This document shows positions 23,680-25,476 of a DNA stretch of 50,408 nucleotides, one piece after another (the stretch's first letter is position 1; each line of letters opens with the position of its first letter). The notes under the pieces are model-generated. The model did no database searches, was not told where the DNA came from, and saw only the letters and a list, made by a program, of their open reading frames with translations. The stretch is from NCBI GenBank assembly GCA_021295715.1, contig JAGWBV010000053.1, forward strand, positions 1-50,408. The letters are read 5' to 3'. A program made the position numbers and the translations under genes. Source of the stretch: Candidatus Poribacteria bacterium. Its GTDB lineage: Bacteria > Poribacteria > WGA-4E > WGA-3G.

Positions 23680-23727
23680 AAAAAAAGGCATCCATCAGCG
23701 AGTATAAGACTCAGCTGAATGGACACC
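23680..23727 (-). terminator. Leader terminator (attenuator) ahead of nirA
   Basis: The minus-strand RNA reads GGUGUCCAUUCAGC, then GAGU-CUUAU-ACUC, then GCUGAUGGAUGCC and seven U. The two arms pair over some 17 bp with one bulge. It stands between nasT and nirA, just upstream of the nirA ribosome site, so read-through must be controlled. Its 5' arm shares bases with the hexaloop hairpin at 23720-23735. Confidence 0.85.
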
Positions 23728-23735
23728 TGTGTCCA
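23720..23735 (-). promoter_or_regulatory. Hexaloop hairpin, candidate ANTAR-protein binding site
   Basis: RNA UGGAC-ACAGGU-GUCCA: a 5-bp stem with a six-base loop having A at position 1 and G at position 4, the rule for ANTAR targets. Its 3' strand (GUCCA) is also the 5' arm of the terminator, so the two folds exclude each other. A second hairpin lies just upstream (23754-23770, AAGGCA-AGUUG-UGCCUU), but its loop has five bases and does not meet the hexaloop rule as drawn. Confidence 0.7.
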
Positions 23736-23827
23736 GACCTAAATTGCGCCATCAAGGCACAACTTGCCTTTATTTTATATTCCACCTTCGGTTAGGTGTT
23801 ATCGTTATTCATTACAGGAGTGCAGGA

Positions 23828-24810: not shown

Positions 24811-25476
24811 CTATACAGACCGCTGCACGGCGTAGATATTAACTTGAGAGGTTTGTCCGTCCAATGTGACAGGGGTGGAGTTCTTTTGATAGACGAAGCC
24901 GTTGTCAGTGAGCAGTTTGAAAAAACCGGTCGCGTTGCTACGATTCGGTTCGGAAAAGAGAGCGACACCATTATGGGCGAGATGCTCCTGAAGTAGCGTC
25001 AGGATCGGTATCCAATGCGGTTCTTCGTAAATGACATCGGCGGCGAGAATGGACAGAAATTTGCGATTGAAGCAGGGGGTGTTCCAATCCATCAGGACGA
25101 AATCGGCGCGTTGGCTCACATCATTCTGTTCGGCGTTGTGGTGTGCGAAGCGGAGTGCTTCCTGTTCCGCATCCGTGAAAACCACGCGCCCACCCATTTG
25201 ACAGGCAACAATTCCTGCCAGTCCAAACCCACATCCGATTTCTAAGATGTGCACATCTTTTAGGCGCGTGCCGATTTTTTCTATGTGGTGGGCGAGACCG
25301 ATCGAAGACTCCCAGAGATAGGTCCAATAGGGAAGGTAAAGTTTGCCTTGATCGTCTTCTCGACTGAGTCGTTCGAGAAACCAATCGGGGTCCTCTACGA
25401 TTGTGAGTTGAACCCGACCGGTTTTCAGCTTAATGATGGTACTTGTTAGCGGATAGTCTCGCAAATCGGTGTTCAT
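24811..25476 (-). CDS. Class I SAM-dependent methyltransferase
   Basis: A 221-residue Rossmann-fold methyltransferase. The AdoMet motif ILEIGCGFGLAGI is near residue 76, followed by an acidic VVFTDAEQEAL at the second strand and VLMDWNTP at the fourth. YLPYWTYLWESSIGLAHHI before motif I, and AADVIYEEPHW after it, resemble the METTL/nicotinamide-methyltransferase-like protein lysine methyltransferase group. The substrate is unknown. No strong ribosome site precedes ATG 25476; it lies 88 bases after the Uma2 gene on the same strand. Confidence 0.82.
   Translation of the reverse strand: MNTDLRDYPLTSTIIKLKTGRVQLTIVEDPDWFLERLSREDDQGKLYLPYWTYLWESSIGLAHHIEKIGTRLKDVHILEIGCGFGLAGIVACQMGGRVVFTDAEQEALRFAHHNAEQNDVSQRADFVLMDWNTPCFNRKFLSILAADVIYEEPHWIPILTLLQEHLAHNGVALFSEPNRSNATGFFKLLTDNGFVYQKNSTPVTLDGQTSQVNIYAVQRSV

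Follow-up and report, generated by a model that had tools for sequence, protein, structure and literature searches.

The nitrate-assimilation locus and its leader

The window, that is, the whole stretch of 50,408 nt analysed here (Candidatus Poribacteria, contig JAGWBV010000053.1, GCA_021295715.1), carries on its minus strand an ANTAR regulator gene (24531-23902), a leader, and the genes nirA, narK and narB. The nirA gene (23658-22069) is predicted to encode a ferredoxin-nitrite reductase with NIR_SIR domains, which matched PRK09566 at 2.9e-162 with a score just below the curated cut-off. A GGAG ribosome-binding site and a likely GTG start (23658) were recognized in the sequence at 23670-23656, and this start region is conserved in relatives. 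The following genes are predicted to encode a narK-type nitrate/nitrite transporter (21957-20602; TIGR00886, 5.2e-91) and a narB/nasC-type assimilatory nitrate reductase (20429-18273), the latter with molybdopterin oxidoreductase domains and a match to the NasC model of 5.8e-156, below the cut-off. In the window's genus the constant upstream neighbour of the ANTAR gene is a Methyltransf_16-type methyltransferase gene (24811-25476), which was not seen at that place in most other genera.

Pfam analysis of the regulator revealed a receiver-like domain (Response_reg, 4.2e-08) and an ANTAR domain (2.5e-17), the latter scoring 62.8 bits against PF03861, well above the curated cut-off of 27.3, and no NIT domain of the NasR type. 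The closest solved relative is EutV (6wsh), which contacts RNA through R142, K143, K147, E160, Y164, M172, N173, R175, and R177 (PMC8934654); these residues correspond to R155, K156, R160, E173, Y177, M185, N186, R188, and R190 of the regulator. The contact positions are kept throughout the phylum, with Arg in place of EutV K147 and Asp in place of N186 in 15 proteins. The phospho-acceptor position of the receiver, on the other hand, was Gly in 54 of 57 proteins, the window's among them, and Asp in none, which sets the regulator apart from the EutVW type; receivers lacking this Asp are enriched on ANTAR proteins (PMC4395418). No NasS-like partner was found at the locus, and the genomes with an ANTAR gene gave just weak, generic NMT1_2 matches; a partner of diverged sequence is conceivable. 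A search of viral contigs returned no relatives of the regulator. In one sequence labelled Flavobacteriales (L066) the receiver Asp is retained, and a useful leader was not found there.

The leader RNA is encoded in the gap separating the ANTAR gene from nirA. Its second hairpin, P2 (UGGAC-ACAGGU-GUCCA, 23735-23720), has a six-base loop (23730-23725) with A at position 1 and G at position 4 (A1 and G4), and its 3' strand belongs to the 5' arm of an intrinsic terminator (23728-23680). The terminator is formed by 18 pairs with two bulges (5' strand 23728-23709, 3' strand 23703-23686; about -23 kcal/mol) and ends in a U-tract at 23686-23680. Since bases 23728-23720 are used by both structures, P2 and the terminator are mutually exclusive. 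The hexaloop hairpin, its overlap with the terminator and the incompatibility of the two were thus all as the original prediction had described them. The minimum-energy fold of the leader includes the terminator, and the leader as a whole folds much better than its shuffles (z -5.25). Hexaloop hairpins by themselves occurred at chance level (24 in the window vs 24.25 in shuffles), whereas a hexaloop hairpin overlapping a terminator was found once in the window vs 0.05 times per shuffled window. In its six-base loop, its A1 and G4 and its overlap with the terminator 5' arm, P2 has the properties of an ANTAR-target antiterminator RNA. Rfam yielded nothing relevant, no family reaching its threshold in the leader.

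Conservation and covariation across Poribacteria

One ANTAR gene was present in 56 of 85 Poribacteria genomes and, with few exceptions, the leader and then nirA, narK, and narB come after it. Every one of these 56 genomes has the P2/terminator arrangement. A covariance model of P1, the first hairpin, plus the terminator (R1), built on 30 sequences with the window clade excluded, matched 56/56 ANTAR-bearing genomes and, weakly, 2 of the 29 ANTAR-less ones. Model matches in G016, G024, and G019:C26 were considered to be due to chance, the P1/P2 pair being unconvincing there. Likewise, nirA genes of >70% identity were confined to ANTAR-bearing genomes; in three of the genomes (L089-L091) the gene after the leader resembles NirB rather than nirA.

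An intact P1, such as CCCAACC-AAUGGU-GGUUUGGG, was found in 46 leaders. All 46 loops carry G4 and 43 of them A1, with the finder slightly favouring G4 and the fixed-spacing count, before one-base shifts were registered, being 40/45. The distance between the loop starts of P1 and P2 is 21 nt in 39 of the 46 leaders and 18-20 nt in the others. In P2, both A1 and G4 were present in 56/56 leaders; the pattern used to locate P2 itself demanded these two bases, and it missed no leader with an intact operon.

Analysis of the stems revealed compensatory change in P1, P2, and the terminator alike, and so the hexaloop-stem covariation on which the original prediction had been staked was found. In P1 and P2 together, 94.4% of cells were paired and five pairs had changed on both sides (23 cells vs 7.5 in shuffles, which ignore relatedness), while in the terminator 94.3% of cells were paired and seven pairs had changed on both sides (32 cells vs 9.5, again in shuffles that ignore relatedness). 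The signal was lost when the partners were slid by one to three bases. The fourth pair of P2 covaries (G-C 31, A-U 15, G-U 4), as does the terminator pair that shares its 3' base (C-G 31, U-A 13, U-G 6); one base is thus tracked by two partners, which is evolutionary evidence for two alternative helices. Together with the shuffle control of the terminator overlap, this covariation ruled out a chance hexaloop as the explanation of P2.

Further leaders of the same type were found outside the nirA position. In G080 and G070, a second ANTAR-type leader precedes an Alginate_exp porin gene. Its stems have new sequences (GGAGCC-AACGUU-GGUUCC and AUCGAC-AGAGGU-GUCGAU in G080), and the two leaders lie at about 2924-2999 of L125 and about 2990-3065 of L126. 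This porin, possibly a nitrate porin, occurs in 2 of 58 family genomes, namely these two. In L089, L090, and L091 an extra attenuator with one clear P2-type hexaloop (GGAC-AAAGGC-GUCC) sits upstream of the ANTAR gene, in the gap that separates it from an amt-like gene, which suggests autoregulation of the ANTAR gene in these three genomes and control without a clear P1.

The split P1 and the upstream hexaloop P0

In the window, alignment with the 46 intact sister P1s and with R1 placed P1 at 23798-23738, where 41 nt with UUU at their end follow CCUAACC-GAAGGU-GG and split the hairpin. The 5' arm CCUAACC, the former hexaloop GAAGGU (23789-23784) and the GG of the 3' arm occupy 23798-23782, and the remaining 3' arm UUUAGG lies at 23743-23738, its UUU being common to the end of the insert. 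In the R1 alignment, ACCUAA of the window pairs with UUUAGG over a span of 48 nt rather than 10. The inserted stretch (23781-23741) matches a dispersed palindromic repeat, roughly AATGTAAAGCAAAGACAAATTGTGCCTTRATGGCACAATTT, whose core was found at 2 sites in the window's genome, 4 in G083 and 11 in G078 (allowing up to 3 mismatches in the last), with no control matches; the copies sit in unrelated surroundings in several genomes. Together with L138-L149, the window copy represents a dispersed short palindromic repeat of Poribacteria of about 41 bp. The five-base-loop hairpin at 23770-23754, which had been proposed as the first hairpin, sits within the repeat copy and was ruled out as P1. The suggestion that the leader might be a real variant held, for another reason, namely the splitting of P1 by the repeat. 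As a P1 hexaloop just upstream of P2 was present in the 46 sister leaders and lacking in the window, the window was treated as a derived variant of the ANTAR-target antiterminator RNA.

The same interruption was found in ten leaders, those of the window, eight close relatives and L050, which sits elsewhere in the regulator tree; the repeat is present in P1 in two separate clades. In addition, a second, GC-rich palindrome (GGGGCGAGGTAACCTCGCCCCTACGG-like) was seen in the apical loop of the terminator in L033, L008, L035, L013, and L039, and in the P0-P1 spacer of L047, L049, and L052, indicating that the leader accumulates short repeats while the terminator is retained.

It is possible, though on balance doubtful, that the switch of the window clade is decaying, i.e., that antitermination has been lost or weakened by the repeat and the operon is expressed by terminator leakage or an internal promoter only, while the sister switch still works. 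In the ten interrupted leaders the probability of the P1 closing pair was 0.000-0.001 and the loop distance 46-65 nt, and longer linkers abolish antitermination by EutV: with the linker lengthened to 14 nt induction fell strongly (PMC3369931), and a 20-nt extension blocked antitermination (PMC8934654), so that in the window the switch may have little or no activity. L050 lacks both a normal P0 and a normal P1. Operon remnants elsewhere also indicate that the locus can be lost: G069 (L059, L072) retains the ANTAR gene and leader but has lost most of nirA and has a truncated narB, and in G029 (L094, 2049-2436) the N-terminal half of the ANTAR gene is fused to the end of narB, a single deletion having taken the leader, nirA, narK, and most of narB. 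Against decay, however, nine species of the clade retain an intact P2 with A1/G4, the terminator, the ANTAR gene, and nirA, and the attenuator of L089-L091 likewise has a single clear hexaloop.

A third hexaloop hairpin, P0, went unnoticed in the original prediction, whose account of P2 and the terminator stood. It lies at 23897-23869 (loop AAGGGU, 23886-23881). Of the 56 leaders, 46 have such a hairpin downstream of the ANTAR stop codon and before P1, and in ten it is absent or degraded. Its form is UUC-AANGNU-GAA with longer outer arms, and a search that left the loop unconstrained gave G4 in 46/46 and A1 in 43/46, with all four bases at position 3. The outer arms covary: paired with their own partners they gave -7.6 kcal/mol, vs -4.5 (sd 0.33) with arms exchanged among species, and the fit also holds within each of the two most densely sampled genera (0 of 500 permutations in either).

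As an inverted repeat with an A-rich stretch downstream, missing from ten leaders, P0 could also be read as a DNA operator for a transcription factor at a nirA promoter rather than as an ANTAR-bound RNA hairpin, which we regard as rather unlikely. All 46 loops have G at position 4, but only 18 have a complementary base at position 3, its partner in a dyad, and these statistics disfavour a DNA dyad. The arms covary with their bulges included, the loop shares the A1/G4 pattern of P1 and P2, and a promoter search between P0 and P1 revealed A-rich sequence only, with no strong conserved element. The loop pattern and the own-arm fit point instead to an ANTAR-type RNA hexaloop, which perhaps has a role in antitermination.

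Proposed control and comparison with known systems

A coincidental hexaloop in what would be simply the terminator of the ANTAR gene is very improbable, for although hexaloop hairpins alone occur at chance frequency, P1 and P2 covary, A1/G4 are invariant, the loop spacing is near-fixed, and the leader co-occurs with the ANTAR gene across several families. Conservation, covariation of the exclusive helices, the kept RNA contacts and co-occurrence strongly support ANTAR attenuation of nirA-narK-narB, and with high confidence we interpret the leader as a transcription attenuator of the ANTAR type that controls assimilatory nitrate/nitrite reduction in Poribacteria, with P1 broken in the window clade.

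In the attenuation model, RNA polymerase would by default form the terminator (23728-23680) and halt before nirA. Once active, the ANTAR protein encoded immediately upstream would bind the P2 hexaloop on the nascent RNA, and the terminator could then not form, because P2 occupies its 5' strand, so that nirA-narK-narB would be transcribed. In most species the protein would meet P1 and then P2, about 21 nt apart. With P1 disabled by the repeat insertion, control in the window clade would have to rest on P2, perhaps aided by P0 upstream. The trigger is probably nitrate or nitrite, acting by a route other than phosphorylation of the usual aspartate, and the input could come through a partner protein or a direct ligand; the lack of both a phospho-Asp and a NasS points to an undiscovered nitrogen sensor. 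We advance only tentatively the fuller proposal that in the window clade an ANTAR protein with an Asp-less receiver antiterminates under such a sensor without a canonical adjacent P1, through P2 alone or with the distant P0. If true, adjacent dual hexaloops would not be obligatory in vivo.

More broadly, nitrate-use genes in sponge-associated Poribacteria are probably turned on by an RNA-binding protein through an RNA switch of a familiar type. No report of ANTAR attenuation in Poribacteria was found in the limited literature searched. The present analysis would extend this mechanism to a sponge-symbiont phylum. Further additions are a third covarying hexaloop and a P1 disrupted in nature alongside intact sister leaders.

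The leader shares with the dual-hexaloop leaders of eutP, eutG, eutS, and eutA, which are targets of EutV in Enterococcus faecalis (PMC3369931, PMC8934654), the same pair of A1/G4 hexaloops, the overlap of P2 with the terminator and the AC/GU pairs closing P2, and in both systems the regulator is a receiver-ANTAR protein with the same RNA contacts. Unlike EutV, the poribacterial regulator has neither a phospho-Asp nor a neighbouring kinase, its targets are nitrate rather than ethanolamine genes, and P1 is interrupted in the window clade. The NasS-NasT system of Paracoccus and Azotobacter (PMC3795266) similarly joins a receiver-ANTAR protein to a nitrate-assimilation leader; a NasS-like partner, however, was found neither beside the poribacterial gene nor convincingly elsewhere. 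Nitrate assimilation is also under ANTAR antitermination in Klebsiella, by NasR at the nasF leader (PMC3369931; PDB 4akk), but NasR senses nitrate via the NIT domain that the poribacterial protein lacks. AmiR-AmiC of Pseudomonas (PDB 1qo0) offers an ANTAR protein with an unphosphorylated receiver-like domain, and differs in its target genes and in its AmiC partner, of which no counterpart is known in Poribacteria. The EutX sRNA resembles P0 in that a further single G4 hexaloop has been reported for it besides the dual one (PMC8934654); EutX is a sequestering, riboswitch-containing sRNA, whereas P0 is located downstream of the ANTAR gene and ahead of P1. As to the number of hexaloops needed, an adjacent pair was reported to be required (PMC3369931) and a single hexaloop to be the minimal binding site (PMC8934654), and the intact and split poribacterial leaders represent matched natural constructs for testing how many an ANTAR protein needs.
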